From positions 3,215,001 through 3,279,000 of the forward strand of contig CP073344.1 in the NCBI GenBank assembly GCA_024397875.1: a stretch of 64,000 bases of DNA, in the 5' to 3' direction. The notes under the pieces were generated by a model that did not search any database, was not told where the DNA came from, and worked only from the letters and a program-made list of their open reading frames with translations. The position numbers and the translations under genes are program-made. Below, piece by piece: positions 5,378 to 62,010 of the stretch. Each line of letters begins with the position of its first letter. Within the stretch, counting starts at the first letter, position 1. The DNA is from Amphritea atlantica (GTDB lineage: Bacteria > Pseudomonadota > Gammaproteobacteria > Pseudomonadales > Balneatricaceae).

Positions 5378-5394
5378 ATCTGCGCACGCTTTTT

Positions 5395-5537: not shown

Positions 5538-5561
5538 ACAACTAGCAAGCGAAGCGTTCTG

Positions 5562-5590
5562 GACAAAGAAAAGCTACGCTTTTCTTTGTC
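5562..5590. repeat. Perfect 13-bp inverted repeat spanning the rlmB stop codon
   Basis: GACAAAGAAAAGC (5562-5574), loop TAC (5575-5577), GCTTTTCTTTGTC (5578-5590). On the minus strand it covers the last codons of rlmB, with the TAG stop (5574-5576) at the loop. It could stabilise the 3' end or act as a weak terminator; it is also the last member of the hairpin cluster. Confidence 0.75.
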
Positions 5591-7350: not shown

Positions 7351-7403
7351 CAGTTTATTTCCGTTTCAAAGCAAAGCGCTATTATCGCGGAATAACAGAC
7401 AAT

Positions 7404-7447
7404 AAAAAACCGCTGTTTTGACTCATACATCAAAGCAGCGGTTTTTT
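7404..7447 (-). terminator. Rho-independent terminator of adk
   Basis: An 18-base left arm starting AAAAAACCGCTG pairs with a right arm ending CAGCGGTTTTTT with one mismatch around a short loop. On the minus strand it follows the adk stop by 17 bases and ends in a T-run. Confidence 0.85.
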
Positions 7448-7464
7448 GTATTCACTACACAGAA

Positions 7465-8533
<1,069 letters not shown>

Positions 8534-26470: not shown

Positions 26471-27037
26471 ATGACACAGATTCAGCCCAACACAGCGCTG
26501 CTGTTAATCGACTTTCAGAACGACTACTTTCCGGGTGGAAAATGGGAACTGAAAAACACTCAGCTTGCTGCTGATAACGCCGCCCAACTACTCACCGCTT
26601 TCCGTCAAAAGCAGCTGCCGGTTATACATGTTCGCCATGAGTTTGAATCGGATGATGCGCCTTTCTTTCTGTCCGGATCGGAGGGCGCTCAGATCAACAA
26701 CACCGTTGCAGCCGGGGGCGATGAACCGATCATTTTAAAACACGCCGCAAACAGCTTTAAAGAGACCCGCCTGAAACAGGTGCTCGACACGCTGAACATT
26801 GAGAACCTGACCGTTGCCGGAGCAATGAGCCACATGTGTATCGATGCCGGTGTTCGGGCGGCAGCAGATCTGGGCTACAACGTCACGGTTGCTCAGGATG
26901 CCTGCGCTACCCGGGATCAGGTGTTCAACGGTATCACCGTCCCTGCTGAGCAGGTGCATGCGTCATTTATGGCGGCACTGGCATTTGCCTATGCCCGGGT
27001 TGAAGATACGGAAGTATTGTTGAGTGAAATGAAGTAA
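26471..27037 (+). CDS. Isochorismatase-like cysteine hydrolase
   Basis: 188 residues. The catalytic triad is visible: D14 in LLLIDFQNDYF, K90 in IILKHAANSF, and C123 in AMSHMCIDAGVRAAADLGY. The cis-peptide/active-site context matches nicotinamidase and related amidases, but relatives also hydrolyse N-carbamoyl compounds and others, so the substrate is open. AGAGG precedes the ATG. It is divergent from the GlxA-type regulator. The REP-type inverted repeat at 27092-27162 follows. Confidence 0.85.
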   Translation: MTQIQPNTALLLIDFQNDYFPGGKWELKNTQLAADNAAQLLTAFRQKQLPVIHVRHEFESDDAPFFLSGSEGAQINNTVAAGGDEPIILKHAANSFKETRLKQVLDTLNIENLTVAGAMSHMCIDAGVRAAADLGYNVTVAQDACATRDQVFNGITVPAEQVHASFMAALAFAYARVEDTEVLLSEMK

Positions 27038-27091
27038 TTCGGGGCTCGTAGTGGACTGCTGTACTGCCCCCAATTAACACAGCCATTTTAA

Positions 27092-27162
27092 TTGTAGGAG
27101 CGGCTTCCAGCCGCGAATTGAAATTCTCACATATTTCTCGCGGCTGGAATCCGCTCCTACAA
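27092..27162. repeat. REP/BIME-like inverted pair
   Basis: A 25-base arm at 27092-27116 (TTGTAGGAGCGGCTTCCAGC onward) and its inverse at 27138-27162 differ at one position. Each arm has the GTAGGAGCGG...CCGCGA form of pseudomonad REPs. It lies between the convergent cysteine hydrolase and OsmC genes and may end both transcripts. Confidence 0.85.
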
Positions 27163-27207
27163 ATACAAAGAAGACTCTTCCCAGCCACGAGCTACAACTC
27201 GTTGCTC

Positions 27208-27615
27208 TTATTCCACCTCTACGATCTCAAAGCTGTGGGTAATCTCTACTCCACCCTTTTCCAGCATCAGAGATGCCGAACAATACTGCTCGGCAGAGAG
27301 CTTTACCGCCCGCTCCACTTTTTTCTCGTTCAATCCCCGACCGGAAACAATAAATTTCACATGGATCTTAGTGAATACTGCAGGCACGGCATCGGCGCGT
27401 TCGGCATCGATCTCAGCGACACAATCCACCACATCCTGACGGGTTTTCTTAAGAATACCGATCACATCGTAAGAGGTGCAGCCCCCCAAACCCAGCAGCA
27501 TTAGTTCCATCGGGCGAGGCCCCTGTTTCAGCTCCCCATCGATGGTAATGTCAAATCCGGAACCGGTGGTTCCCTTGAAACGGACATCGCCGTCCCATTT
27601 TACTTTTGCCTGCAT
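27208..27615 (-). CDS. OsmC family protein
   Basis: 135 residues, the length of the YhfA-like OsmC group. The two redox cysteines are in LGGCTSYDVIGIL and EQYCSASLMLEKG. Substrate-groove features GPRPMELMLLGLGG are typical. OsmC proteins reduce organic hydroperoxides or act as thiol-dependent hydrolases in the cytoplasm. It is downstream of trpC on the same strand, separated by 59 bases, so it may be read through from trpGDC or stand alone. Confidence 0.88.
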   Translation of the reverse strand: MQAKVKWDGDVRFKGTTGSGFDITIDGELKQGPRPMELMLLGLGGCTSYDVIGILKKTRQDVVDCVAEIDAERADAVPAVFTKIHVKFIVSGRGLNEKKVERAVKLSAEQYCSASLMLEKGGVEITHSFEIVEVE

Positions 27616-27674
27616 AGTAACTGTATCTTCTCTATTGAAACTTTATTGTTTGATCAGCACTGATTAAAAAGCTT

Positions 27675-28484
27675 TCATTTAAAAAGTTCGGCCAGCTTTT
27701 CACCCGGATTATCGGCGCGCATAAAGGCTTCACCCACCAGGAAGCTGTTAACATTGTGCTCCCGCATCGCCATAACATCGTCACGGCACAGAATACCGCT
27801 TTCGGTGACCACGATACGATCGTCAGGCACCCTATCCAGCAATTCAAAGGTATGCTCAAGTGACACTTCAAAGGTGTGCAGGTTACGATTATTAATCCCT
27901 ACGAGCGTGTTACCGATTGGCAATGAACGCTCCAGTTCAGCTTGGTTATGCACTTCAATCAATACGTCCATTCCCAGCTCCAGCGCCAGAGCATTGAGAT
28001 CCGCCATCTGAGCGTCTTCCAGCGCGGCGACTATCAGCAGGATACAATCCGCACCGATCGCCCGGGCTTCGTAAATCTGATAAGGGTCTACAATAAAATC
28101 TTTACGGATAACTGGCAATGCACAGGCGGCACGCGCTTCCATAAGAAAAGCTTCACTGCCCTGAAAGAAATCAGCATCGGTGAGCACTGACAGACAACTG
28201 GCACCGCCCGCTTCATATGAACGGGCAATATCGGCTGGCACAAAGGGATCACGAATCACCCCTTTGGAAGGGCTGGCTTTTTTCGCTTCCGCAATAATAG
28301 CAGAACGCCCTTCAGCCAGTGTTTTCGCCATATTCGCGACAAAACCACGGGGATCGGTCGCACTGCCCTGCTGATCTGCGATCTGTGCTTTCAGGTCAGC
28401 AATACTTTTGACCGGCTGACGCTCAGCAATCTCTGCATATTTCCGCGCAATTATCTTTTTAAGCACGGTAGGTGTATCAGTCAT
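27675..28484 (-). CDS. trpC: Indole-3-glycerol phosphate synthase
   Basis: 269 residues, single-function form (no TrpF fusion). It closes CdRP to indole-3-glycerol phosphate. Motifs are [94 protein letters not shown] and VTESGI. Six bases separate it from trpD. Last trp gene of the trpGDC unit. Confidence 0.97.
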
Positions 28485-28490
28485 CGTTGT

Positions 28491-29525
28491 TCAGTCCTTC
28501 AGCGACTGGCTAAAATCCGCCAGCTGTTGCATTTTATTCAGTGCCGCGCCCGAGTGGATCGCTTCCAGGGCTTTTGCCACGCCCTCTTTATGGCTGGACG
28601 CCTGACCGCTGATATAGATCGCCGCGCCAGCATTAAGAGCCACCATCGATGCCGCCTTTTTAGCAGCAGCATCTTCAGCGCCTGAGAATGCCTTCTTAAT
28701 CAGCTCCAGTGACTGGGCCGGACTATCAATTATCAGCCCGATCAGACTCTGACTCTCAACACCCAAATCTTCAGGTGACAAACGATATTCCGTAATTTCA
28801 CCGTCTTTCAGCTCAGCCACGTAGGTGTGGGTTGCCAGACTGATCTCATCCAGGCCATCATCCGCATGTACCACCATGATGTGTTCGCCGCCCAGTTGCT
28901 GCATCACCTCCGCCATTGGCCGACAGAGTTTTTTAGTAAATACCCCGATCACCAGGCGCTGCGCTCCGGCCGGATTGGTCATCGGCCCGAGGATATTAAA
29001 TACCGTGCGGGTAGCCAGCGCCCGACGGGCCCCGATGGCGTGTTTCATCGCGCCATGAAAGCCCGGTGCAAACATAAAACCGACACCGACTTCATCGATA
29101 CAGCGGGCTACAGCATCAGCCCCCAGATCCAGATTGATTCCCGCTTGCTCCAACAGATCAGCACTGCCACTGCTGGAGGACACCCCCCGGTTGCCATGCT
29201 TGGCCACATAAACACCGCAAGCCGCAGCGACAAAAGCACTGGCAGAAGAGACGTTAAACAGGTTGGCACCATCGCCACCGGTACCGACGATATCGACCAA
29301 CGGCGCAGAGGTTGCTTTTACCGGCGTCGCCAGTTCACGCATCACCTGGGCAGCACCGGTAATCTCATCAATCGACTCACTCTTCATCCGCAGCGCAACC
29401 AGAAAACCGGCGATCTGCGATTCAGAACATTCACCGGTCATCACCTGACGCATCACTTCAACCATTTCATCGCGGCTCAGATCGATATGATCGACCACCC
29501 GCGCCAGCGCTTCTTTGATATCCAT
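28491..29525 (-). CDS. trpD: Anthranilate phosphoribosyltransferase
   Basis: 344 residues. It joins anthranilate to PRPP. The PRPP loop is [45 protein letters not shown] and [30 protein letters not shown] are further hallmarks. It lies ten bases after trpG and six before trpC. In this window it competes for anthranilate with the dioxygenase encoded upstream. Confidence 0.97.
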
Positions 29526-29535
29526 TGTGTCGTCC

Positions 29536-30117
29536 TTATGCTCGGTTTAAAAAGTTTTGCAGCAGATCATGGCCCTGCTGAGTCAGGATGGATTCCGGGT
29601 GGAACTGCACCCCTTCAATATCCAGTTCTTTATGCCGCACGCCCATGATCTCATCGACACTACCATCATCGTTCTGAGTCCAGGCGGTGATCTCCAGACA
29701 GTCTGGCAAGGTATTCTTATCAATCACCAGTGAGTGGTACCGCGTCACAGAAACCGGATTTTCCAGCCCGGCAAATACTCCGGTATTGTTGTGATAAACC
29801 GGAGAGACCTTGCCATGCATCACCTGACGGGCACGAACCACATCACCGCCAAAGGCCTGGCCCATACTCTGATGACCCAGACAGATACCAAAGATCGGCA
29901 GTTTACCGGCAAAATGCTTAATCGCCGCAACCGAGATACCCGCTTCATTTGGAGTACAGGGTCCGGGAGATATTACCAGTTGGGTGGGGTTGAGGGCTTC
30001 GATCTGTTCGATCGTAATTTCATCATTACGATACACCTGAACTTCAGCACCCAGCTCACCCAGATATTGCACGACGTTATAGGTAAACGAGTCGTAGTTA
30101 TCGATCATCAGTAACAT
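29536..30117 (-). CDS. trpG: Anthranilate synthase component II (glutamine amidotransferase)
   Basis: 193 residues. The class I amidotransferase triad is C79 in [17 protein letters not shown]173 and E175 in [10 protein letters not shown]; the oxyanion segment [11 protein letters not shown] is present. TrpG gives ammonia to TrpE to make anthranilate from chorismate, and the pseudomonad form can also serve PabB. trpE is not upstream here, where antC ends instead, so TrpE must be encoded elsewhere. First gene of trpGDC. Confidence 0.95.
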
Positions 30118-30468
30118 ATCAATACTTAACCTATTGATTTATATAATTAATAACATCGAGCCTTATTCAGGTTACCCGGTTTATACACCAAATAAATCGA
30201 AACTGAGCAGCAGATGGCTTCGAAGAACAGCCGATTATAGTACAGGAACCTAATTCCGGATAACACTGATGAGCGATGAAAACCGTCATCGGAGGGGCTA
30301 ACAGAGGAAAACGACTATAAACTGCCAGAGGAAAAATACCTGCATATCCGTTTCCATGATATCCAGGTATTGAAAGTTATAGCCGCTGAGGAAAAATGTG
30401 CGCTGCTTTTCTTAAAGTAACAAGAAACCAGGCCCACGTGCTCAGCATCACCAGGCAGACAAAAAGCG
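30118..30468. other. Gap between antC and trpG: antC terminator and trp promoter side
   Basis: About 350 bases. The antC-proximal end holds a strong hairpin terminator (30331-30371). The trpG-proximal end should hold the trpGDC promoter; I see no leader peptide rich in Trp codons and no tRNA-like or TRAP-type repeat. Confidence 0.45.
30331..30371 (-). terminator. Rho-independent terminator after antC
   Basis: On the minus strand AATACCTG and ATATC pair with GATAT and CAGGTATT (one unpaired base on each side) around a nine-base loop, followed by T residues. It separates the catabolic unit from trpGDC. Confidence 0.75.
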
Positions 30469-31488
30469 TTAACTGGCAGAGAATTTCTCATAGTGGATCG
30501 CACTATTGGCCATATCCCGTTCATCCAGCCAGCCTTTCACGGCATCCACCATCGGCGGCGGCCCACACAGGTAGAGATCAACCTCGCCGTCGTTGAAATG
30601 ACTATCCTCAAACAGATCGGTGACCACTCCAACCGGTCCCTGCCAGCCATCGGTTTCTTTCATGACGATGCTGTCATAACTGAAGCCCGGTAGTTTTTCT
30701 GCAAACGCCTGGAGGCGTTCGATCTCACACAGATCAGCCATCTGAGTGACACCATAAAACAGGGTGATCGGCTGATCGCAACGTTGAGGATTCTCAACCA
30801 ACTGATCGAGCATCCCGAGAAATGCAGCCAGCCCGGTTCCGCCAGCGACAAAAATTAGCGGACGTTTGATCTGATGCAGATAAAACGCCCCCAGCGGAGC
30901 CTTCAGTTTCATCCGGTCACCCGGTTTTGCCCGGTCGCGCAGATAATCACTCATCACCCCCTGCGGCAGCAGCCGGATCAGAAACTGCAACTGATTCGTC
31001 TCATTGGGTGCACAGGCGAAGGAGTATGAGCGCCACTCGCTGGTACCCGGCACATTTACATGGGCATACTGCCCCGGCAGGAAGTCCAGCTGATCACCCC
31101 GGGCCTGAGCATCAATGTAAACCACCGCGGCGGACTCTGATACCCGATCTATTTTGGTAATCACCGCCTCCAACTCTTCCGGCCCGGCGCTGGTGCAGAG
31201 CGTTGATTCAAAGCCAAACTCTATAGCGCAATCGGATGCCACCCGCATCTGACAGGTCAGCACACTCCCCTGCTCCAGCTCTGACTCACTCAGGGCATCC
31301 TCATCAACATATTCAAGCTGATAATCCCCGGAGCTGCAGCGCCCTTTACAGGTAGCACAAACACCTTCCCGGCAATCGACCGGAATCGTAATACCCTGAC
31401 GCAGAGCCGCATCGAGTACGGTTTCTCCAGCATTAACACCAATAAACTTGGTGCGCCCATCACTGAAATTCAAAGCAACTTTATTCAT
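30469..31488 (-). CDS. antC: Anthranilate 1,2-dioxygenase reductase component
   Basis: 339 residues. An N-terminal plant-type [2Fe-2S] ferredoxin domain has C39, C44, C47 and C79 (DCREGVCATCKGRC...LTCQ). It is followed by an FAD domain (WRSYSFACAPNET) and an NAD domain (LIFVAGGTGLAAFLGMLDQL, LYLCGPPPMVDAVKGWL). This is the BenC/AntC layout, passing electrons from NADH to the Rieske oxygenase. It ends the catabolic series and is followed by a terminator; a 135-base gap separates it from antB. AntC rather than BenC is chosen from the partner oxygenase. Confidence 0.88.
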   Translation of the reverse strand: MNKVALNFSDGRTKFIGVNAGETVLDAALRQGITIPVDCREGVCATCKGRCSSGDYQLEYVDEDALSESELEQGSVLTCQMRVASDCAIEFGFESTLCTSAGPEELEAVITKIDRVSESAAVVYIDAQARGDQLDFLPGQYAHVNVPGTSEWRSYSFACAPNETNQLQFLIRLLPQGVMSDYLRDRAKPGDRMKLKAPLGAFYLHQIKRPLIFVAGGTGLAAFLGMLDQLVENPQRCDQPITLFYGVTQMADLCEIERLQAFAEKLPGFSYDSIVMKETDGWQGPVGVVTDLFEDSHFNDGEVDLYLCGPPPMVDAVKGWLDERDMANSAIHYEKFSAS

Positions 31489-31623
31489 AAAACACCTCAG
31501 AAAATCTTCGTCTGATAGAAGACCGGAATCGACGACATACAGACCGTTGCAGAAGCCCGCTAAGGGGAAGAGGCAGGCTCTGCATCTGAAGCCTAAAGAT
31601 CTTAATACCGACCTGATAACCGA

Positions 31624-32127
31624 TCAGACGTGATAGAAATCAAGCACATGACGAATTTTATCGTTCAATAAAATCGCTTGTTTACGAAGGACTTTCCAGC
31701 TGTCGCTATCGGCTCGAAGGATATATTCAGCCCGGCCAAAGAATGCTTCAGATTCACCAAAACGGTAAAAGTGTGTCACCCAATTTGCCTTAACCTTCCA
31801 GGTACCATCGGCTTGCTCCTCACCCTGCACATTGTTAACACTGTGCAGGGTGCGGGGCATCGGGGTACAGGCGGCCGACTTACCGGTGCGGATGCGGAAG
31901 ACCCGATCCTCAAGACCAGCCCGGGTGGCATAGTAGATCAGCGACATCTCCCGTTTAGGGTCAGTGGTATGCACATGTTCTGAATCCCATTGAGGGATAT
32001 GAAACTCGGCATTTTCATCAAATGTTGCCAGATATTCATCCCACTGCTGACGATCACAGTACTCGGACTGAGTGTAAAGAAACTGCTCAATGCTCTTCAG
32101 CGCAGCGTTTTTCATTTCAATCGACAT
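31624..32127 (-). CDS. antB: Anthranilate 1,2-dioxygenase small (beta) subunit
   Basis: 167 residues from ATG 32127, which shares one base with the antA stop (TGATG), with AGGAGG just ahead. The ring-hydroxylating beta fold is shown by QFLYTQSEYCDRQQWDEYLATFDENAEFHIPQWD, REMSLIYYATRAGLEDRVFRIRTGKSA and the C-terminal FYRFGESEAFFGRAEYILRAD. It has a structural role in the alpha3beta3 oxygenase. The QWDSEHVHTTDPKRE stretch is like AntB as I remember it. Confidence 0.86.
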   Translation of the reverse strand: MSIEMKNAALKSIEQFLYTQSEYCDRQQWDEYLATFDENAEFHIPQWDSEHVHTTDPKREMSLIYYATRAGLEDRVFRIRTGKSAACTPMPRTLHSVNNVQGEEQADGTWKVKANWVTHFYRFGESEAFFGRAEYILRADSDSWKVLRKQAILLNDKIRHVLDFYHV

Positions 32128-33521
32128 CACTTTTCCTCCTGTTGCTGCAGCTTACGATCCAGCCCCTGCAGCAGATAACGCTGCCAGGTAGAATGCTGAT
32201 TTACATAGAGGCCTTCATGAGTAAACTCGGTGCCGGTAATGGCCGGGTGAATACCCAAAGCCTCGGTATTGGCGGTAGGTTCCCGGGTCCATTTGTCGCA
32301 ACCACGGGAGATGTCATTCCAGCGTTCCAGGCGCGCTTCAAAACCCTTCTGGGCTTCGCGGAATTCCACCAGGTCATCGGGGGTGCCCATACCGGAAACG
32401 TTAAAGAAATCCTCAAACTGACGGATACGGTTTTCCCGATCGGTATCGGATTCGCCTTTAACACCCAGGCAGAAACTGTGAACTTCGGTTTTATTCCAGG
32501 CGACCGGGCGAACAACGCGCAGCTGAGAGCTGATCTGATCCATAAAGAACAGACTCGGGTAGATGTTGAGGTTACGTAAACGATGCATCATCCACTGCGC
32601 ACGACTTTCGCCATACTCTTCGATCAGACGGGGCATAACAGAGGCATAACCCGGACGAACCTCAGGGTTGGGCATATCACTGAAGAGGATGGTATGACCG
32701 TTGTTGAAAGCAAACCAGCCATCATCGGTTTCCTTATCACCCGCACCCAGCTTGCTGTAGTCGAGCACTTTTTTGCCGGTGCCATGCTTTTCTATTTCCA
32801 GTTGCTGACGATACTGCACCGTAGCAACGTAGTTATAGTGCACGGTGCTGACGTGATAACCATCGAGACCATTTTCATTCTGCAGCTTCCAGTTACCATC
32901 AAAGGTATAGGAAGAGGATCCCGGCAACACTTCCAGCTCACCGCTCTCTGACTGTGCCACCATCATGTCAAAACCGATGCGGGCATCGCCGAGGAAATCT
33001 TCAAGCGACTCGGTGCAGGCAGTATTCAGGTTAATGAAAACGAAACCCTTGTACGAGCTGATCAGCGCTTTACGCAACCCTCGGGTCGACTTATCAAAGT
33101 CATCAGGATATTCACCGGGGGCTTTGACTTTCACCAACCGGCCGTCGGTCTTATAACACCAGGCATGAAACGGACAGGTAAAAGTAGACTGATTGCCACG
33201 ACATACCCTGGTCAGGGTTGCACCACGATGCTGACAGGCATTAATCAGCGCATTCAGCTCGCCGTTACCATCACGGGTGATGATCATCGATTGACGGCCC
33301 GCCTGCAGGGTAAAAAAGTCATGGGGGTTGGCTATCTGGCTCTCATGACAGGCATAAATCCAGGTATTTTCGAAGATAAGATCCATCTCAATATCGAACA
33401 GATCCCGGTCGGTAAACATTTCACGCGCAACACGATAGACATTGTCTTGCGGACGAAAGTCGGTCCAGCTTTCAACCTTATCGCGCCACTCAATCAGTGT
33501 TTGTTTAGAGTTAGTATTCAT
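32127..33521 (-). CDS. antA: Anthranilate 1,2-dioxygenase large (alpha) subunit
   Basis: 464 residues. The Rieske cluster ligands are C96, H98, C116 and H119 (NACQHRGATL...FTCPFHAWCYK). The catalytic iron site holds H223 and H228 in ENGLDGYHVSTVHYNY. The product would be catechol with loss of CO2 and ammonia. Overall wording (FRPQDNVYRVAREMFTDRDLFDIEM, KVKAPGEYPDDFDKSTRGL) matches pseudomonad AntA as I recall it much better than BenA. The genes upstream make anthranilate from indole, which supports that substrate. A benzoate-type substrate is not excluded. Translationally coupled to antB. Confidence 0.86.
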   Translation of the reverse strand: MNTNSKQTLIEWRDKVESWTDFRPQDNVYRVAREMFTDRDLFDIEMDLIFENTWIYACHESQIANPHDFFTLQAGRQSMIITRDGNGELNALINACQHRGATLTRVCRGNQSTFTCPFHAWCYKTDGRLVKVKAPGEYPDDFDKSTRGLRKALISSYKGFVFINLNTACTESLEDFLGDARIGFDMMVAQSESGELEVLPGSSSYTFDGNWKLQNENGLDGYHVSTVHYNYVATVQYRQQLEIEKHGTGKKVLDYSKLGAGDKETDDGWFAFNNGHTILFSDMPNPEVRPGYASVMPRLIEEYGESRAQWMMHRLRNLNIYPSLFFMDQISSQLRVVRPVAWNKTEVHSFCLGVKGESDTDRENRIRQFEDFFNVSGMGTPDDLVEFREAQKGFEARLERWNDISRGCDKWTREPTANTEALGIHPAITGTEFTHEGLYVNQHSTWQRYLLQGLDRKLQQQEEK

Positions 33522-33550
33522 TGATTCAGTCTCCTGGCTCAGCTAATTGA

Positions 33551-34441
33551 TTAAAACTTCACAATTGTTTTTATCCAGAAAGCATCGCCCTGAGGCCGAT
33601 TTTCAACCGCCATCTCTTTTTGATACTTAACGGATAAAAAGAAGCCTTTGCCATTGTCGAATTTAATCGCAGGACCGATGGCGAAAGCCTGGCCCTTATT
33701 ACCGATATCCGTGCCGTTGACTTCATCTCCGGTCAACTGTTTATAGGCATACCCACCGACACCGACAACCCAGTTCGGTGATACGCCGTAACCCAGGGAA
33801 TAATCGGCATGCAACTCCTGACCCGATCTGTAGTCGGTATCATCATTTTCGAAGTTGTAGTCATACATCACTTTCACCCCCCAGTTGAAACCGGCAGGAT
33901 CAATATGGGACGCGGCGTAGATACCCTGAACAGTCCAGTAATTACGACCGATATTGGCTAGCCGGGATGAATCATATTCACCGGTGGGCGCGATAACATC
34001 GACACCGATAGCGGTGTGAAACTGAGGACTGTGATGGAAGGCCAGCGCGGCGGTCAGATCCAGATCACCAATACCAGATTCGCTATCGTTCATCCCCATG
34101 ACGGAGACATCCAGATCAACCAGCGGTAACAAACCGGCAAAAAACAGCTGACCACCGAACAGAGTTTTATCCGTTACATAAAGCAGTCGCGGCGCCAGCA
34201 CATTGGCTTTCAGATTAAAGTTGATGGGCAAACTTTTTCCATCATTGCCCTTAAAATCATCCGCCTCATAATGCTCAGCGTAAATCAGCGGATAGACACC
34301 GGGAGGTGGCAGCGCGCCCACCAGCAGATCTTCAGCCCCCATCGGGTAGTTCGAGCCACCGCCCTCAGTCGCCTGAACCTGAGTAGTGATTAAAGATGCC
34401 CCGATCAGACACCCCATTGCATAGTTAACTGTACGTTTCAT
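33551..34441 (-). CDS. Outer-membrane channel, phenol-degradation MetA/SphA-like family
   Basis: 296 residues. The signal peptide is MKRTVNYAMGCLIGASLITTQVQA. The mature protein begins with a GGGSNYPMGAEDLLVGALPPPGVYPLIYAEHYEADDFKG segment typical of the family found in aromatic-degradation operons, then alternates short strands (FNWGVKVMYDYNFEN, NWVVGVGGYAYKQL) and ends with an aromatic-containing strand finishing in KF, as beta-barrels do. It probably lets the aromatic substrate cross the outer membrane. It lies 29 bases before antA and 66 after the flavin reductase gene, inside the series. Confidence 0.82.
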   Translation of the reverse strand: MKRTVNYAMGCLIGASLITTQVQATEGGGSNYPMGAEDLLVGALPPPGVYPLIYAEHYEADDFKGNDGKSLPINFNLKANVLAPRLLYVTDKTLFGGQLFFAGLLPLVDLDVSVMGMNDSESGIGDLDLTAALAFHHSPQFHTAIGVDVIAPTGEYDSSRLANIGRNYWTVQGIYAASHIDPAGFNWGVKVMYDYNFENDDTDYRSGQELHADYSLGYGVSPNWVVGVGGYAYKQLTGDEVNGTDIGNKGQAFAIGPAIKFDNGKGFFLSVKYQKEMAVENRPQGDAFWIKTIVKF

Positions 34442-34507
34442 GTGATGTTATTCCTTATTATTCGTATGATAAGAGACCGGCCTCAACCGGACTCGACGGT
34501 GTGGGAC

Positions 34508-35038
34508 TCAGTCACAGAGCTGCTTAAAACCACCCCGATAAAACACCAGAGGTTCGCCCGCATCGGCCCGGTCAAAGTCAAGCACCCGGCCGACGATCAG
34601 CAGGTGATCACCGGCGACACGGGTAAACTCCACCTGACACTGCAGGGTTGCCAATGCATCCTCCAGCAGCGGCACCCCAGTCGGACTCAGGCGATACGGA
34701 ACACCGGAAAACTTATCCTCAGAGCGGGTCGCCAGCTGCATCGCCAGCCCCTCCTGACTCTGACTGAGGATATTCACATTGAAATATTTACCCTCATCAA
34801 ACGCCGCCACACTGGGTGAGGTCAGTACCAGACTCCACAAGATCAGAGCCGGATCCAAAGACAGAGATGAGAAAGAGTTGGCGGTAATCCCCACCAGTTG
34901 ATCATTCTCGCCAAGCGCGGTAATGGCGGTGACACCGGTGGCAAACATGCCAAAGGTGTTGCGCAGCTCGCGGGTATCAATCAGCGGCATCTCAACAGCA
35001 GCTGCGGAATTTATAGACTGTGTATTAGAAGCGGTCAT
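34508..35038 (-). CDS. iifD: Flavin reductase partner of the monooxygenase (IifD/IndB-like)
   Basis: 176 residues from ATG 35038, one base after the monooxygenase stop and with GGAGG ahead; the upstream extension of the open frame overlaps that gene and is rejected. The flavin-reductase fold shows RNTFGMFATGVTAITAL, GITANSFSSLSLDPALILWSL, FNVNILSQSQEGLAMQLA and GDHLLIVGRVLDFD. Such proteins use NAD(P)H to make free reduced FAD for a StyA-type enzyme. The tight coupling supports a two-component system. Confidence 0.87.
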   Translation of the reverse strand: MTASNTQSINSAAAVEMPLIDTRELRNTFGMFATGVTAITALGENDQLVGITANSFSSLSLDPALILWSLVLTSPSVAAFDEGKYFNVNILSQSQEGLAMQLATRSEDKFSGVPYRLSPTGVPLLEDALATLQCQVEFTRVAGDHLLIVGRVLDFDRADAGEPLVFYRGGFKQLCD

Positions 35039-35039
35039 C

Positions 35040-36281
35040 TCAGGCCTCCAGCTTAAAATATTCGCCAACCACCTGATTACAGGCGTCTGCATTAGTCCAC
35101 CAGGGCATCATGTCGACCGGGTTGTTAAAGCCGTTGGCAATGGTCTTAGCCAGTTCCGGTGATTGTTGGGCGGCACCCAGCAGGTTGAGAGTATGCTCCT
35201 CAGGCGGCAGCAGGATGCTGTTGGTCCAGCCAACCACTTGTTCGGCGTAAGCCCAGTAAGCTTCGAAGGTATCCTTCATCCAGTTTTCATCAAACGCCTG
35301 ATCACCGTGGGCAATAATGGAGTCCAGATAGATCTTGCTGCACTTGGCGCCATTGTTTGACCCCTGACCGGTAATCGGATCATTGACCACCAGCGCATCC
35401 GCCATGCCCAACACTTTACGCCCGGAAGGCAGGGTCATTACCGGCTTACGCACCGTTGGCGGGAAGCGACCGGCCAGTACACCATTGTCATCCGTGAGCT
35501 GAATATTCTTGCAACGTTCCGCTTCCCATGGGCAGTAGGTATTGAGGATCTCCAGGCTGCGGGCCAGGTGTTGTTGCGGGGTTTCGACATCGCCCCAGCA
35601 ATCCATCGGACCTCCCGGAATCCCCTCAAACACCATAATTTCGCAGGGACCGCTCAGGGTCAGGGCGGGGAAACAGAAGTATTCACCCACACCGGGAATC
35701 AGATTAAACGCTACGCGGGAAAACGGTTCTTTAGGTTCCATGCCATGCACATAGGTGAGTGCAAGAGCCCGTTGTGGTTTATCAAACACGGAACGCTCAG
35801 CATCCCGTTCAAACTGACGGACGATCTCGCCTTTACCCGCCGCCAGCAACACCAGATCGTGTGAAGCGGCCAGCGCTTCAAGTTCGTCAATACCGGCATC
35901 CTGGAACACCAGATCGCCACCCAGACGGACAAACTCATCCATCCATACCGGCATCTTCAGACGCTGATCCACCGACTGCGCTTTGTGGTCGATAGGCGCC
36001 GCCCAGTCGATCAGTTTCTCACCGGGACGTTCGGGGTTGGGCACCGTCAGGCCGATACCCTCGACCGGCGGGCAATCGTTTTCCCAGAAATTAAGCCCCA
36101 GCTCTCTTTCGGTATTCAGTGCCATATCGAACATGCACTGACTTGAAGTGACCCGGCCGGAACGAATCTCCTCCTGCGTCCGGTTGGATAACATAGTGAC
36201 CTGATAGCCCTGTTTTAAAAGGCCAATACCCGTCTGCAGACCGGACTGACCGGCACCTATAATTGCGATTTTACGTGACAT
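35040..36281 (-). CDS. iifC: Two-component FAD monooxygenase, indole/styrene type (IifC/IndA-like)
   Basis: 413 residues from ATG 36281, with GGAG eight bases ahead; the longer open frame runs into the upstream gap. N-terminal Rossmann motif is IAIIGAGQSGLQTGIGLLKQGYQVTMLSN. The rest has the StyA pattern: RVTSSQCMFDMALNTERELGLNFW, PFSRVAFNLIPGVGEYFCFPALT, and NDPITGQGSNNGAKCSKIYLDSI near the FAD site. Known relatives epoxidise styrene or oxidise indole; the neighbouring SDR, hydrolase/SnoaL fusion and anthranilate dioxygenase point to indole. First oxygenation step of the proposed route. Confidence 0.85.
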   Translation of the reverse strand: MSRKIAIIGAGQSGLQTGIGLLKQGYQVTMLSNRTQEEIRSGRVTSSQCMFDMALNTERELGLNFWENDCPPVEGIGLTVPNPERPGEKLIDWAAPIDHKAQSVDQRLKMPVWMDEFVRLGGDLVFQDAGIDELEALAASHDLVLLAAGKGEIVRQFERDAERSVFDKPQRALALTYVHGMEPKEPFSRVAFNLIPGVGEYFCFPALTLSGPCEIMVFEGIPGGPMDCWGDVETPQQHLARSLEILNTYCPWEAERCKNIQLTDDNGVLAGRFPPTVRKPVMTLPSGRKVLGMADALVVNDPITGQGSNNGAKCSKIYLDSIIAHGDQAFDENWMKDTFEAYWAYAEQVVGWTNSILLPPEEHTLNLLGAAQQSPELAKTIANGFNNPVDMMPWWTNADACNQVVGEYFKLEA

Positions 36282-36315
36282 AAAATTTACTCCAGATGTT
36301 ATTTTTATGGCTGGC

Positions 36316-37104
36316 TTACTCAGCGAGTTTGGGGATTGCCGGGGTGCGCTGTTCCGGACCAATCGCGGCATAGCCACCATCAACCGCATAATCAGCGGCG
36401 GTTACAAAGCTGGCCTGCGGAGAACAGAGAAACAGCACCACTTCGGCCACTTCGCGGGGGTCCCCCAGACGCCCCAGCATATGAAAATCAGCGGCAACCT
36501 GATCCGCCTTAGCCCGGTTGCCACCACTGACTTCATTGATCACCCGGGACCAGGTCCAGCCCGGAGAAACCGAGTTCACACGGATGCCATCTTCGGCAAA
36601 GTCCATCGCCATGCTGCGGGTCAGATGACGGATCGCCGCCTTGCTGACGGGATAGAGCCAGCGACCAGTCTGAGCAACCTGCGATGAGATGCTGCTGAAG
36701 TTGACGATCGCGCCGCCACCCCGTTTAACCATCAGCGGACGGGCGATATTGGCCGCCATCACGGCACTCACCACATTGATATCCAGAGCGGTTAGCCAGT
36801 CTGCCCGGGAAGAGGCCTGTCCTTCATCCAGATAGCTGCAGGCCAGATTGATCAGATAATCAACGCCTCCAAAGCGGCTTTCAGCACGGTTGATCGCGGC
36901 GGTTAACTGAGCATCGTCGGTGATATCCGCTGCAAGAAACTGTGCTCTGGCGCCAAGACGATCGGCCAGAACAACACCCGCTTCAGCATCGATATCGATC
37001 ACCGTGACACTCGCACCCGCCTCGATAAACACCTCGGCAACGGCCGCACCGATCAGGGTTGCGCCACCGGTGACAATGACACTGCGGTCGTTAAACAGGC
37101 TCAT
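36316..37104 (-). CDS. iifB: SDR dehydrogenase of the indole cluster (IifB-like)
   Basis: 262 residues, classical short-chain dehydrogenase. The cofactor motif is TGGATLIGAAVAE with D36-type acidic end VTVIDID, suggesting NAD. NLACSYL stands where most have NNAG. The catalytic region is SSISSQVAQTGRWLYPVSKAA. It overlaps the upstream hydrolase-fusion gene by four bases (ATGA). In the described Acinetobacter iif pathway the SDR oxidises indole-2,3-dihydrodiol to 3-hydroxyindolin-2-one; that role is inferred from position. Confidence 0.83.
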   Translation of the reverse strand: MSLFNDRSVIVTGGATLIGAAVAEVFIEAGASVTVIDIDAEAGVVLADRLGARAQFLAADITDDAQLTAAINRAESRFGGVDYLINLACSYLDEGQASSRADWLTALDINVVSAVMAANIARPLMVKRGGGAIVNFSSISSQVAQTGRWLYPVSKAAIRHLTRSMAMDFAEDGIRVNSVSPGWTWSRVINEVSGGNRAKADQVAADFHMLGRLGDPREVAEVVLFLCSPQASFVTAADYAVDGGYAAIGPEQRTPAIPKLAE

Positions 37105-38351
37105 TTTGCACCTCCCTGATCCAGCCCTTCACTGTCGGGCCAGTTCGGCATCAGCGTATTGGAAGGCAGTGTTTCATCCAGCAGCTTGGCCGCCGATTCC
37201 CGTCCGGCAACCGGCAGGCCTTGAGGATCAAGCTTGCCAATCTGAACCAGTACAGAGGCCTGGTCCCAGTAGATATGCTCGTGATACAGCTTATCGCCAC
37301 GGAACTTGACCACCGCCACCAGCGGTACTTCAACGTATTTTCCGGTCGGTTCAATGCCTGGCAGCATCCAGTCGATGACCCGGTCATGAGTAAAGGTGAA
37401 GAGCAGTTCATCAACAATCTGAGTTGCGCCGATGGTGCGGGAGATAGGGATAAGCGCCGTATCGGCAGGGTTCACATCAACAAAGTGATTTTTGTAGAAG
37501 CGATAGAGATTTTTATAGCCCACCCCACCCGTCATATTAGGGATATGGTTGACGTAGGGTTCAGCCACCATGGTTGCCATAGTGTCATCCACATTGCGGG
37601 TATCAAATTCATACTCACAATGTTTATCCCAAAGGTAGGAAAGATCGTAGTGCGGGCCGATTGCATTACGGAACGCCGTCACCGAACGCTGATGAGCCAT
37701 CAGTGCAGAAGGCTTGTGATAATGTTCCGATCCCTCACGGGCAAACGCATGGTCAACGCCCGGGTAGGTATACAGCTCCACATGCTCCTGATCACCCAGC
37801 GCCGCACAGATATCGTTGCGCGCGGCTTCGGGGCAATATTCATCATTACCGGCAAAGTGCAGCACCAGCCGGCCATTAATATTGACCGCCTCATCCAGAT
37901 GATTTTCAATGCCCATGCCGTAATAACCGACGGCAGCATCAACATCACAGCGGCAGGCTGTCAGGTAGGACAAGCGGGCGCCCAGACAGAACCCCAGTGC
38001 GCCGACCTTGCCGTTGCACTCAGGTCGTCCTTTCAGAACACTGATCGCCGCGTCGATATCCTCAACGCCCAGGTCCTGATCGAAGCCCTGATAAAAACCG
38101 AACGCCTTCTCCCACTCTGCCGGGCTGTATTCCAGCTCCACACCGGGCTCCTGACGCCAGAACAGATCGGGCGCCAGTACCACATACCCCTCCTCTGCAT
38201 AGTAATCAGCCACCTTTCGCATGGTATCGTTGATACCAAATATCTCCTGCAGCAGGACAATACCCGGTCCCTCACCCGAAGCAGGCACCGCCAGATAACC
38301 TTTAAACCCGCCGCTGCCATCTTTTGCCTGGATATCAATCATTGTGCCCAT
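37101..38351 (-). CDS. iifA: Dienelactone hydrolase - SnoaL/NTF2-like fusion (IifA-like position)
   Basis: 416 residues from ATG 38351, with AGGAGG six bases ahead. Residues 1-235 are a dienelactone hydrolase domain with the complete triad C122 (GALGFCLGARLSY), D170 (HFAGNDEYCP) and H201 (YPGVDHAFAREGS), plus E36 in LQEIFGI. Residues about 250-385 are a SnoaL/NTF2-like cone fold (YVNHIPNMTGGVGYKNLYRFYKNHF, DELLFTFTHDRVIDWMLPGI). In indole clusters the last enzyme turns 3-hydroxyindolin-2-one into anthranilate without a cofactor; this gene is the only candidate here. Which half does it is unknown. Start of the minus-strand series. Confidence 0.78.
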   Translation of the reverse strand: MGTMIDIQAKDGSGGFKGYLAVPASGEGPGIVLLQEIFGINDTMRKVADYYAEEGYVVLAPDLFWRQEPGVELEYSPAEWEKAFGFYQGFDQDLGVEDIDAAISVLKGRPECNGKVGALGFCLGARLSYLTACRCDVDAAVGYYGMGIENHLDEAVNINGRLVLHFAGNDEYCPEAARNDICAALGDQEHVELYTYPGVDHAFAREGSEHYHKPSALMAHQRSVTAFRNAIGPHYDLSYLWDKHCEYEFDTRNVDDTMATMVAEPYVNHIPNMTGGVGYKNLYRFYKNHFVDVNPADTALIPISRTIGATQIVDELLFTFTHDRVIDWMLPGIEPTGKYVEVPLVAVVKFRGDKLYHEHIYWDQASVLVQIGKLDPQGLPVAGRESAAKLLDETLPSNTLMPNWPDSEGLDQGGAK

Positions 38352-38396
38352 AGCACGCCTCCTGAATGTTTTTGTTTTTCTCGAATCGTTATTCAT

Positions 38397-38675
38397 CCTC
38401 GAATATCAGGCAGGCAATTACGCTCCGAAAAATGCGGGGACTATCCACAAGGTGCTAAAAGATGATCTGGCTCAATGATTTCTGAAACAGGTTCACGCCC
38501 TGCAAACACTGGCCATCCGGTCAGCGCGCCCACTATCCAGATAGCGCAGCTTATTTAACACTGAGTAAAAAATGCACAACTGAACGGGCAAACGGCGGTA
38601 TACATAATTGCAACAATATGCAATATATAAGAGGCGATGCATTGATTTAGATTAATAAAAATAAGGTAGTAATCT
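38397..38675. promoter_or_regulatory. Divergent control region of the indole/anthranilate island
   Basis: About 320 bases between the AraC-type regulator and the first catabolic gene. The direct repeat ACTATCCA occurs at 38440-38447 and 38532-38539; the second lies in CTATC-CA-GATAG (38533-38544). These are candidate regulator sites; spacing and function are unproven. Confidence 0.4.
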
Positions 38676-39677
38676 ATGTCTTCTGACTTAACGTTGTCTC
38701 CCTGGCTGAGAGACGCACTTAAAGGTGATCCCGGGCGCTTAGTCTTCAGTTCGGGTACGCTGGAGCAGGTCAGGGAAGAGGTCTCAGCGATGTATAAACC
38801 CCATCTGCTGGATATTAAAGGCAGGGGATCCAACCTCGATGCCCGTTTGCACTCTGTGGCGTTGGGGAATGTCCGGTTTAACCGGCTAAAGTATGGCGCC
38901 GAAGTCGTCATCGACCCCGGCAACCTCGAACAGTTTTATCTGATTCAGATGCCGGTCTGTGGTCAGGCCGACATCTATAGCGGCAATCACCTTATCTCAT
39001 CGGATACGGATACCGCCTCCATTATCAACCCTTCCGACCCGCTGAGAATGATCTGGAGCGAGGATTGCGACCAGCTGATGTTCAGAATTGACCGGCACTC
39101 GGTGGAATTAGCCTGCAGCCAGATACTGGGACGATCCGTTCGCACGCCCCTGCGATTCAAGCCCGATATGAACTGGCACCGAAACCCGGTCTGGCGCAAC
39201 ATGATGATGTACCTGGCGCACCTGCTACAGGATCAGCCCTCAATCACCACACAACCGACCATCACCCACCAACTTGAACAACTGATCATCAACACCCTCA
39301 TCTCAATCCAACCCCATAACTACACCGACGCCATGAACAAGCCTGACCGGGCTCTGGCACCGCGACATGTGAAAAAAGTCGAAGAGTATATTGAGAGTCA
39401 CGCTGACGAGGCGCTGACGCCGGGAGCGCTGGCCGAAATGGCGGGCGTCAGCGTCCGGACACTGTATGCGGGTTTTAAAGATTTTCGTCAGACCAGCCCG
39501 ATGGAGTATCTGCGTACAATCCGCTTACAGAGAGCCCGGGAAGAACTACAGAGGCAGGATCCCGATTCATCGGTCACCGAAATCGCCATCCGCTGGGGGT
39601 TCACCCATATGGGCCGCTTCAGTCAGGATTATTCACGTATGTTTGGCGAACGCCCCAGTGAAACCAAGCGCAGATAA
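38676..39677 (+). CDS. AraC/XylS-family regulator of the indole/anthranilate island
   Basis: 333 residues. The N-terminal half matches the AraC_binding_2-type sensor found in AntR, IndR and FeaR-like proteins (EQFYLIQMPVCGQADIYSGNHLISSDTDTASIINPSDPLRMIWSEDC). The C-terminal HTH pair is SHADEALTPGALAEMAGVSVRTLYAGFKDFRQTSPMEYLRTIRLQRAREEL and VTEIAIRWGFTHMGRFSQDYSRMFGERPSETKRR. It is divergent from the catabolic series and should activate it in response to indole or anthranilate. One regulator appears to serve both halves. Confidence 0.87.
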   Translation: MSSDLTLSPWLRDALKGDPGRLVFSSGTLEQVREEVSAMYKPHLLDIKGRGSNLDARLHSVALGNVRFNRLKYGAEVVIDPGNLEQFYLIQMPVCGQADIYSGNHLISSDTDTASIINPSDPLRMIWSEDCDQLMFRIDRHSVELACSQILGRSVRTPLRFKPDMNWHRNPVWRNMMMYLAHLLQDQPSITTQPTITHQLEQLIINTLISIQPHNYTDAMNKPDRALAPRHVKKVEEYIESHADEALTPGALAEMAGVSVRTLYAGFKDFRQTSPMEYLRTIRLQRAREELQRQDPDSSVTEIAIRWGFTHMGRFSQDYSRMFGERPSETKRR

Positions 39678-39723
39678 ATCATTAACAGAAATACTGCCCG
39701 GCTGGCACTAAACAGGACAATGA

Positions 39724-40092
39724 TCAGCTGCAATACTTCTCCAGGGTCAGTGACACTGAATCCGCAAAGCGCAACGCATGAGGCTTATCAATAGTGACAC
39801 TGGCGAAGGTCACCCAGGGATGGTCAGTCGCGATTTCCAACACATCGGCGACCAGCTTTTCCAGCAGCAGAAAGTGTCCCTCTTCAACGTGCTGAATAAT
39901 CTCCTTACACACCACTTTATAGTTCAGCGCCTTCTCCACATCATCACTCATTGCCGCTTTCACCGCCGGATAGTGGATCTCAATATTGATCACCACATCC
40001 TGTAGCTTTTCGCGCTCTTCCGGGTTAAATCCGATATAGGTACGCAACCGCAGATTTTTAATTCGGATAATGGCATTGCTGACTGATGGCAT
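39724..40092 (-). CDS. folX: Dihydroneopterin triphosphate 2'-epimerase FolX
   Basis: 122 residues. [64 protein letters not shown] and [24 protein letters not shown] follow E. coli FolX closely as I recall it. The IHYPA and KPHALR features separate it from FolB aldolase. It epimerises dihydroneopterin triphosphate to the monapterin form. Single gene, converging on the AraC regulator. Confidence 0.93.
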
Positions 40093-40335
40093 TTCTGGGT
40101 CCTTGTCGATTTTTATCAGTGGGGTTCAGTAGTCTATCAGAACCAGTTTAAGTCGCCAGATATGACGACACACCGGCATTCCTGAATGACATACTCGTAC
40201 GCACCTCAGCCCGGGTTGGTTCACGGTAGCAGAGCAGAACCTCGTCTAATCGGCTCTAAAGATCGCAGTGCTATATTCTGTATCGCTCATGACAGGTATG
40301 ATGGCATATTTACAGGCTGACGCAGGATTACAACC

Positions 40336-40872
40336 ATGAGTGATGAGATCAACTATAAGAATAACCCGCTGCACGGGCTGGGTTTGAAAGAGCTGTTAAC
40401 CCAGATAGTTGATCACTACGGTTTTGAGATTCTCTACGCCTATCTGAACATTAACTGCTTCAAAACCAATCCCAGTATTGAGTCCAGTGTAAAGTTTCTC
40501 AAGAAGACCGACTGGGCACGGGAGAAGGTCGAACTGTTCTATCTGTATAAGTTTAAAAATCTGCCACGGGTTTCATCCGAGCAGTTTGCCCTGTCACCCA
40601 GAGACCGGGTTATTCCCGAAGGCCAGACACCCCGCGAACCGGCAGAACTGAGCCTGGAAGATGCTGAGCGCATGCGAGAAAAACAGGCACTAAAAGCAGC
40701 TGAACATGGTAAAACAAAAAGCTATCGCAGCAGTAAGCCGGGCGGCTATTCCAGCAAACAGGAAAACGCCCGGGATAAGCAAGATCGCTGGAAACCGGCA
40801 AAAAAAGCACCTGATTCTCAAAGCGGCTCATCCGATAACGATGACGATCCATGGGCTAAGTGGAGAAAGTAG
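40336..40872 (+). CDS. VF530 family DNA-binding protein with basic C-terminal extension
   Basis: 178 residues. The first 75 form the complete VF530/DUF2132 domain: [72 protein letters not shown]530 proteins are usually about 75 residues and bind DNA. Here about 100 more residues follow, poor in hydrophobics and rich in Lys, Ser, Arg and Glu, and ending DPWAKWRK; they look disordered. Ends with its own strong terminator. Confidence 0.85.
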
Positions 40873-51723: not shown

Positions 51724-52602
51724 TCAGATAAACCGGACCCGCGGCTCTTCCCGCCCGATGGTATCAGTCTGGATGCTGAACACCTTTCCGGCATCCGGCT
51801 GCTGGACCAAAGCCAGCTCAGAAAGAAGCTCACGGGCAGAGGTGACAAACAGCGTGCGCATATCCGGTCCGCCAAACGCCGGGCAGGTAATTTGTGACGC
51901 GGGCAGGGTTATTGTCGATTCAATAGCGCCATGGCAGTCATAGCAGGTGACTCGTGAAGCCCCCCACTGTGCATTCCATAATCGTCCCTGAATATCGCTA
52001 ACGGCACCATCCGGGTTTAACCCCTGCTCGGCACAGTTGATAAACAGTTCAGGTTCGCCCTCCGGCCAGCCGTCAACGGCATTCAGGCGCTGCCGCCATA
52101 TGACCCCGACTGCTGTATCGGCAAAATAAACATACTCTCCCTGGGGCGAAAAACAGATCGCATTAGGAATGGTAACAGTGGTGATCAGGCGGCGAATTTC
52201 TCCGCGATAAAAACGATAGATAGCTCCGGCCTCAGGCTCGGCATGTTTGCCCATCGTCCCGACCCAGAACCCTCCCCAGGGATCCGCCCGCCCATCATTC
52301 GAACGGGTCAGTGGATTATCCGCCTCCAGATCACAGAGTCGCTCCGTTTTGCCGCCATCCAGATCAAACCGATACAGCCCGGTTTCACCGGCAATTAACA
52401 GAGTGGATTGATCAATCCAGCCCGCGGCAGACACATACTCATCAAAGCGCCACTCATGCTGATACCCCTGAGCCGTCCGGGTCAATAATTTGCAGTTAAG
52501 AATATCAAACCAGAACAGCTGTTGGCGTTCAGGATGCCAGAGCAGCCCCTCACCGAGTTCGCAGGGCCGATCATCATAAACCCGCACCTCAGCACTACCC
52601 AT
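51724..52602 (-). CDS. SMP-30/gluconolactonase-type sugar lactonase
   Basis: 292 residues. The metal site is shown by LGEGLLWHPERQQLFWFDI (Glu), SNDGRADPWGGFWVGTMG (Asn/Asp) and GLNPDGAVSDIQGRLWNAQWG (Asp). It hydrolyses an aldonolactone, here L-arabinono- or D-galactono-lactone, to the aldonate. It overlaps the upstream dgoA by eight bases and ends the ten-gene minus-strand operon. Confidence 0.9.
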   Translation of the reverse strand: MGSAEVRVYDDRPCELGEGLLWHPERQQLFWFDILNCKLLTRTAQGYQHEWRFDEYVSAAGWIDQSTLLIAGETGLYRFDLDGGKTERLCDLEADNPLTRSNDGRADPWGGFWVGTMGKHAEPEAGAIYRFYRGEIRRLITTVTIPNAICFSPQGEYVYFADTAVGVIWRQRLNAVDGWPEGEPELFINCAEQGLNPDGAVSDIQGRLWNAQWGASRVTCYDCHGAIESTITLPASQITCPAFGGPDMRTLFVTSARELLSELALVQQPDAGKVFSIQTDTIGREEPRVRFI

Positions 52603-53206
52603 GACCGCTTATCCGATCAAAAGCACTCACCATTGCCTGTGCATCCCGGGCAATATCCGTAAGGGATTTACCCGGTTTATACAGCGCCGAACCAATGCCA
52701 AAGCCATCGGCCCCGGCGGAGATCCAGTCGGTAAAATTGTGCTGATCAACACCGCCGACCATAAACACCTGTGCCCCTCGCGGCAATACGGCCCGGATAG
52801 CCTGCAGTCCTGCATACCCCATTATCACTGCTGGAAAGACCTTCAGCGCAGTAGCACCGGCCTGCAATGCCATAAAACATTCACTGGCAGTCAGAACACC
52901 GGGATAGGAAGCCATCTCAAGACGTCGGGTTGCCGCAATAACCTGAGAGTTACAGTTAGGCGAAACGACAAACTGTCCACCGGCAGCGGCTACGTTTTCA
53001 ACGTCATCAACCGTCAGTACTGTGCCCGCACCGATGCGCGCATCTGCCGCGAACTGATGTGACATAATAGCAATACTTTCCAAGGGCTCCGGGGAGTTCA
53101 GCGTCACCTCGATATCGGTGATCCCCGCGTCAATCAACACCGAGGTGACTGACTCGGCCTCGTCAGGACGTATTCCCCGGAGAATAGCGATCAGGTTACG
53201 ACTCAT
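52595..53206 (-). CDS. dgoA: 2-dehydro-3-deoxy-6-phosphogalactonate aldolase
   Basis: 203 residues. The Schiff-base lysine is K122 in ALKVFPA and the catalytic Glu is E33 in DIEVTLNSPEPLESI; NLIAILRGIRPDEA is the typical start. It splits KDPGal to pyruvate and glyceraldehyde 3-phosphate, the last step of the DeLey-Doudoroff route. It lies 24 bases after dgoK and overlaps the lactonase gene. A KDPG (Eda-type) activity is possible, but the DgoK partner favours galactose. Confidence 0.92.
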   Translation of the reverse strand: MSRNLIAILRGIRPDEAESVTSVLIDAGITDIEVTLNSPEPLESIAIMSHQFAADARIGAGTVLTVDDVENVAAAGGQFVVSPNCNSQVIAATRRLEMASYPGVLTASECFMALQAGATALKVFPAVIMGYAGLQAIRAVLPRGAQVFMVGGVDQHNFTDWISAGADGFGIGSALYKPGKSLTDIARDAQAMVSAFDRISGHG

Positions 53207-53230
53207 AGCAGATCTCCAACATTATATTGA

Positions 53231-54148: not shown

Positions 54149-54151
54149 CGC

Positions 54152-55666: not shown

Positions 55667-55699
55667 TACGCACTCCTTACATAAATATTGTTGCATAGA

Positions 55700-59183: not shown

Positions 59184-59195
59184 AACTCCCTCCTG

Positions 59196-60419: not shown

Positions 60420-60434
60420 TATTATTCTCTCCAC

Positions 60435-61958: not shown

Positions 61959-62010
61959 ATTACATGTCCTGACTCGCGGACCTGCCAGAGCAAGCCCGCA
62001 GGAATGCGAC

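Follow-up and report, generated by a model that had tools for sequence, protein, structure and literature searches.

How does a bacterium that oxidises indole to anthranilate, and anthranilate to catechol, bring the two halves of this route under common control? The question is raised by a gene series in Amphritea atlantica, in which iif genes for indole oxidation are followed at once by antABC, the genes for anthranilate 1,2-dioxygenase. Here, we analyse a stretch of 64,000 nucleotides (contig CP073344.1 of assembly GCA_024397875.1, positions 3,215,001 to 3,279,000; hereafter the window, whose numbering is used throughout unless another locus is named). It is probable that this stretch encodes an indole-to-catechol series under the regulator IifR, that the second regulator AntR and its operator have been lost, and that catechol leaves by meta-cleavage. 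Gene order, orthology, the absence of antR and its operator, the operator copies and the content of ring-cleavage genes are read from the sequence.

The regulator gene iifR (38676..39677, plus strand; AraC/XylS type, Pfam AraC_binding_2 and HTH_18) is divergent from a minus-strand series, iifA-B-C-D-E-antA-B-C, that ends at 30469. Open reading frames and Pfam matches recover all nine genes at the positions given in an earlier reading of the same DNA (the original prediction), including its single divergent AraC-type regulator. Neighbouring genes of the series overlap by 4 bp or are separated by gaps of 1–66 bp, with the exception of antB and antC (135 bp). Longest-frame starts were corrected to likely starts at 38351 for iifA (behind AGGAGG), 36281 for iifC and 35038 for iifD (ATG). 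In G+C content the iif-ant cluster (0.529) differs little from the window as a whole (0.519). The gene order is far beyond chance, since five other loci (L025–L029) preserve the series in full.

The first five genes of the series correspond to those of the indole half. Compared with the locus of an A. baumannii strain other than ATCC 19606, the products are a DLH-family cofactor-independent oxygenase (iifA, 37101..38351; Pfam DLH; 61% identity), a short-chain dehydrogenase (iifB, 36316..37104; adh_short_C2; 63%), a StyA-like, FAD-dependent indole monooxygenase (iifC, 35040..36281; Smoa_sbd; 67%), a flavin reductase (iifD, 34508..35038; Flavin_Reduct; 46%) and an outer-membrane channel of the MetA type (iifE, 33551..34441; Phenol_MetA_deg, 240 bits; 28%), while IifR is 37% identical. 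Oxygenase, dehydrogenase and flavin reductase thus stand in series as an iif or ind cluster requires, and the identities first proposed for these enzymes are borne out by the Pfam, PDB and A. baumannii comparisons. For the first enzyme, described as a DLH-SnoaL fusion, the DLH part stands and the SnoaL half is weak (E 7e-4, below the Pfam cut-offs). IifC matched PDB entries 7z4x, 9lrq, 7z97 and 7zca at 631–637 bits (637 for 7z4x, which we take to be the indole monooxygenase of A. baylyi), as against 193 bits for 9j0h (named styrene/indole monooxygenase family) and 134 and 124 bits for the styrene monooxygenases 9qi9 and 3ihm; on the StyA model it reached 199 bits, where the cut-off is 550. The enzyme does not, on these scores, cluster with the styrene enzymes, and a reading of the locus as styrene degradation is ruled out. 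With 67% identity to its A. baumannii counterpart it is an orthologue of IifC, and it lies far from classical StyA. The separation does not extend to every protein called StyA: in Rhodococcus opacus the E2-type 'StyA1' shares 59.8% of its residues with IifC of A. baumannii (PMC4577076), and E2-type proteins thus come close to IifC in sequence. The functions of IifA–D have been described (PMC6221969, PMC12538310), the iifA product converting 3-hydroxyindolin-2-one to anthranilate (PMC6221969), and the orthologues of A. baumannii and Acinetobacter sp. O153 act on indole (PMC4577076, PMC6221969). By homology, the iifA product of the window would carry out the same step, and the cluster is predicted to convert indole to anthranilate.

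The anthranilate half is assigned by model scores. The large subunit AntA (32127..33521; Pfam Rieske and Ring_hydroxyl_A, with Rieske and iron motifs present), the small subunit AntB (31624..32130; Ring_hydroxyl_B) and the reductase AntC (30469..31488; Fer2, FAD_binding_6 and NAD_binding_1) reached 857.5, 234.7 and 501.1 bits against TIGR03228, TIGR03231 and NF008822, the NCBIfam models for anthranilate dioxygenase; all three values exceed the equivalog cut-offs of 671.9, 213.5 and 402. On the benzoate models they scored 490.6, 167.3 and 402.5 bits, all below cut-offs of 780.95, 225.55 and 430. BenA and BenC, encoded elsewhere in the same genome, behave in the opposite manner (851.1 and 534.7 bits on the benzoate models, over the cut-offs; 493.1 and 325.6 bits on the anthranilate models, under them). 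AntA therefore does not group with BenA, the AntABC-like dioxygenase of the original prediction is upheld in all three subunits, and a benzoate dioxygenase is ruled out.

The two halves meet at a short junction. Only 29 bp separate iifE from antA (33522..33550, minus strand), and this gap, which contains a likely ribosome-binding site and neither antR nor an antR-type operator, has the same length in all six Amphritea-type loci (the window and L025–L029, including L028 of Marinomonas spartinae). Both halves are indeed joined in one series. Seven other loci (L030, from an Oceanospirillaceae metagenome-assembled genome; Halomonas L031, L032, L035, L041 and L049; and Marinobacterium profundum L036) have 1369–1480 bp at this position, the place of antR, and carry there an opposed AraC-family gene whose product is 27–32% identical to the IifR of the window. 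A 22-bp repeat, G[GC]ATA-N17-G[GA]ATAG, distinct from the IifR repeat described below, precedes antA in 11 of the 13 loci in which antR adjoins antA; the pattern was written from eight of these (8/8 match), and of five added later three match. The repeat is missing from all six antR-less Amphritea-type loci, and a scan of 46 sources gave no other occurrence. When the AntR of M. profundum (L036) was used to search the A. atlantica genome, the best match was IifR itself (28%), followed by a full-length match at 24%.

The six antR-less loci group together in the AntA tree (100/100), where the antR-bearing L030 is their sister (95/93), and again in the IifC tree (100/100), which leaves the placement of L030 unsettled. 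By parsimony, the loss of antR would be the derived state. The position of M. spartinae inside the Amphritea clade suggests transfer of the fused unit into this species. In M. sedimentorum (L038), antA lies behind iifE at a distance of 84 or 99 bp, depending on the start codon, with no antR between. This looks like a separate join, as AntA from this locus clusters with that of M. profundum (98/99) and IifC with that of M. lacunae (100/100), with the proviso that the contig ends inside antA and antR may lie elsewhere. Other arrangements occur: Marinobacterium L033, L034, L037 and L062 have antABC upstream of iifR, and in Pseudomonas antABC follows after 3 kb with antR (L045) or is inverted (L046 and L048).

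If antABC has no regulator beside it, control would fall to IifR, which is 48–95% identical to iif-adjoining regulators in Amphritea, Marinomonas, Marinobacterium, Marinobacter and Halomonas loci. Comparison of the iifR-iifA gaps gave a predicted operator, a 20-bp direct repeat of the form GC-N6-YGGATAGY-N3-YGC-N6-CGGM, with two exact copies on the minus strand of the window: a distal one at 38516..38547 and a proximal one at 38424..38455. The predicted operator stands only in front of iifA, and these two are the only exact copies in the 4.55-Mb genome. Among the 22 loci in which both iifR and iifA are present, 17 have the exact pattern (two copies in each of five Amphritea-type loci, one in the other 12). 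It is common to the Amphritea type, Halomonas and Marinobacterium, and is absent from L034, L044 (which has one-mismatch matches), L045, L046 and L048. Elsewhere than in the iifR-iifA gaps, the 753,264 bases of the 38 loci gave a single exact match, located between iifR and iifB of L042, a locus in which iifA was not found, together with one single-mismatch match in L045. Because the pattern was derived from these same gaps, a held-out matrix was trained on 11 loci outside the Amphritea type (including L034). It ranked the distal and proximal sites first and second in the window (29.6 and 24.0 bits), the third-best position reaching 10.3. Applied to 14 further loci, it placed the best site ahead of iifA in 12, among them the four Pseudomonas loci that lack an exact match (L044, L045, L046 and L048) and, weakly (7.7 bits), A. 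baumannii L110, a chromosome-sized record (4.09 Mb) filed as a plasmid in the collection; in L042 the best site preceded iifB.

The operator is visible only through comparison between species, as a generic repeat search in 38397–38675 found nothing. Allowing up to three mismatches, the pattern gave two matches in the window against a mean of 2.0 in shuffled sequence, which is at chance, and both matches are the exact copies. At up to two mismatches the genome holds 15 matches compared with five for a reversed control, and there may for this reason be weaker additional IifR targets. The proximal copy ends about 70 bp before iifA, a position that suits an activator adjoining a promoter, itself putative. 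L030 has a second, weaker IifR site (two mismatches), so the doubling of the operator may predate the loss of antR. An operator predicted in common for several genera offers a handle on the question of iif regulation posed in PMC6221969. A natural case of interrupted iifR is L029 (metagenome-assembled genome P03BWT1Cbin.2), in which an insert of about 1.26 kb (within 5341–7600 of that locus), transposase-bearing by eye, splits the gene near codon 26.

How do these features relate to known systems? The iif operon of A. baumannii ATCC 19606 and Acinetobacter sp. O153 (ind in Cupriavidus SHE) has the same iifA-B-C-D-E order, the same families and an AraC-type IifR, but in A. baumannii iifR lies downstream and antABC is on the opposite strand, whereas in the window antABC continues the series. 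The WHOP and WHOP-like clusters (whpR, dhoAB, ipoABC, antABC, antR and catBCA; PMC12538310) encode the same indole-to-catechol enzymes with an AraC regulator, and the window holds counterparts of their whpR (iifR), dhoAB and ipoABC. Since iif genes with antABC are already published from Pseudomonas, Acinetobacter and Marinobacterium in that paper of 2025, the pairing of the two halves is not in itself new. The WHOP-like clusters form separate operons, most with antR and some with catBCA, in contrast to the one series of the window, which is without antR, in a genome without a PF00775 match. The clusters of Halomonas, M. profundum and HF-Din08 (the seven loci above) are closest in layout, with iifR, iifABCDE and then antABC and an IifR-type operator, but they keep antR and its own operator between iifE and antA. 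Relative to AntABC anthranilate 1,2-dioxygenase, all three subunits match and the window's copy lacks AntR beside it. Searches of the accessible literature on iif, antABC/antR and meta-cleavage, most of whose hits were seen as listings, showed neither an antR-less iif-antABC fusion nor an IifR operator; exceptions to 'antABC and antR' are named in the available text of PMC12538310, which does not say there which gene is lacking. The chemistry is known, the series is well kept and the regulatory layout is new: a known pathway is found here in streamlined form, while several related bacteria retain a second regulator between the halves.

What becomes of the catechol? Genome searches with PF00775, PF00903 and PF02900 gave no match inside the window, in keeping with the earlier remark that it holds no ring-cleavage gene. 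In the genome as a whole (99.4% complete), too, the intradiol family PF00775 is without a match. This suggested that catechol might be a dead end, an idea dropped when four catechol 2,3-dioxygenases over the TIGR03211 cut-off, missed by the original prediction, were found outside the window (L063–L066). Three of these genes adjoin a 2-hydroxymuconic semialdehyde dehydrogenase-like gene, of which the one scanned passes, and one locus also has BenA and BenC. As PF00775 is unmatched and four catechol 2,3-dioxygenases are encoded, catechol should leave by meta-cleavage, presumably through these enzymes, a route by which some marine bacteria may dispose of carbon from indole. Within the genus, all four operon-bearing genomes lack PF00775 and have TIGR03211 over the cut-off, compared with four with PF00775 and six with TIGR03211 over the cut-off among the other 13. 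In M. spartinae, genes over the cut-offs for a catB-like muconate cycloisomerase and catechol 1,2-dioxygenase (catA) lie upstream of iifR (L028:1641–4124), and since they adjoin the same operon this species could feed either ring-cleavage route. By eye, one of the four A. atlantica loci has a phenol-hydroxylase-like set, and another a TRAP-like transporter with a ring-hydroxylating dioxygenase.

A mechanism can be proposed from these features. Most likely, IifR binds one or both operators ahead of iifA and would turn on the iifA promoter in the presence of indole, as in A. baumannii, where iifABCDE is transcribed as a unit and the induction of IifC by indole requires IifR (PMC4577076). In the ancestor, antABC would have been served by a separate AraC-type regulator, AntR, with an operator to itself; both would have been dropped in the Amphritea lineage, and as a consequence antABC would rely on the iif promoter. 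Catechol would then be opened by the catechol 2,3-dioxygenases encoded elsewhere. In this scheme, transcription as a unit, the role of indole as signal, activation by IifR, the exit by meta-cleavage and, from parsimony, the direction in which antR changed are inferences. A wider reading is more tentative, and we lean slightly away from it: the loss of antR would have rewired the signal, so that anthranilate breakdown, which in relatives has its own regulator, answers here to indole only, via IifR, and anthranilate is burnt only during indole breakdown and otherwise spared for tryptophan. A similar join would have arisen at least twice (in the Amphritea type and M. sedimentorum), and the fused unit would have moved into Marinomonas, feeding the ortho and not the meta pathway. 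The locus offers a clear and testable case of catabolic operon fusion, in which loss of a regulator together with its binding site would place the downstream enzymes under the upstream signal.

Several observations weigh against one series switched on by IifR. The gaps had already been read when the operator patterns were drawn up from them, leaving the held-out matrix and the five later AntR-repeat loci as independent tests. In L114 the best matrix site (15378) lies between antA and antR and not ahead of iifA, a hint that IifR can act directly on antABC too. Three Marinobacterium loci (L039:14902, L040:12980 and L062:14920) encode a second IifR homologue that is closer to the window's IifR (62–63%) than the iifA-adjoining one (48–49%), and these paralogues may share out the work. 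In A. baumannii L110, antR lies about 11 kb from antA and the AntR repeat is missing. Deletion of whpR in P. savastanoi raises most WHOP operons, so WhpR represses its cluster (PMC12538310); as WhpR is the counterpart of IifR, activation may not carry over, and the predicted operator could help to explain why the regulator seems to activate in one species and to repress in another. Within the series, the iifD-iifE gap (34442–34507) has a 9-pair hairpin kept in most of the six loci, whose window copy is flagged as terminator-like (five pairs, broken T tail) and is overlapped by a 9-of-12 promoter-like match; the antB-antC gap (31489–31623), which measures 135 bp in the window as against 18 bp in L030 and 39 bp in L036, has a long hairpin (−31.9 kcal/mol, one compensated pair) largely kept in the six loci, which perhaps tunes the dose of AntC; a promoter-like match covers the end of antB (31684–31655); and terminator-like sites in 30000–39000 are somewhat above shuffled sequence (13 against a mean of 8.0, standard deviation 3.2). 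The hairpin and overlapping match between iifD and iifE mean that iifE-antABC might be partly separately expressed, and in the extreme case there would be two transcription units, iifABCD(E) under IifR and antABC under a weak or constitutive promoter within iifE or the iifD-iifE gap. This is unlikely: the 29-bp junction has space for a ribosome-binding site only, the searches gave no AntR better than IifR and no AntR-type operator, promoter-like matches in 30000–39000 are below their frequency in shuffles (5 against a mean of 8.1), and the T tail of the iifD-iifE hairpin is not kept among the aligned relatives.

The purpose of the series may also be read differently. The cluster might mainly detoxify indole, the join to antABC preventing a build-up of anthranilate beside trpGDC and not serving nutrition. 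The start of trpG 351 bp downstream of the series, behind a strongly conserved block, would fit this, as would an effect of WhpR on trpAB in P. savastanoi (PMC12538310) and the framing of A. baumannii iif as detoxification (PMC4577076). The four catechol 2,3-dioxygenases speak for use of the carbon instead, and in M. spartinae the same operon stands with catA and catB and trpG is not there, so that detoxification as the main role seems doubtful. Marine hosts encounter bromoindoles, and indole could be incidental to a true substrate such as skatole or a marine haloindole; a related Providencia oxygenase also accepts 6-bromoindole (PMC9871250). Against this stand the Acinetobacter orthologues, which act on indole itself, and the joined AntABC, which fits anthranilate, and a substituted indole appears quite improbable.

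The series is sparsely distributed. A scan of a genome collection with IifC, which is 96% identical to an Amphritea atlantica counterpart, gave 38 loci, 20 of which also carry AntA (at least 70% identity). With the genome of the window counted in every tally, IifC was found in four of 17 genomes of the genus, the other three being those of L025, L026 and L029, and AntA in the same four; in nine of 390 genomes sampled from the order (E 1e-100; AntA in 13 at E 1e-150); and in six of 369 from the class. For Amphritea, the available text of PMC9365125 mentions indole only as a production test. Directly downstream of antABC lie trpC, trpD and trpG (27675–30117), likewise in four of the five relatives; the conserved block before trpG contains a TATAAT box, which weakens the case for read-through into trpGDC. 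No RNA family reached its gathering threshold in 27000–40500. Further along the window, 51724–63069 holds what by eye is a sugar or sugar-acid set, with an ABC transporter, an aldolase, a dehydratase and dehydrogenases.

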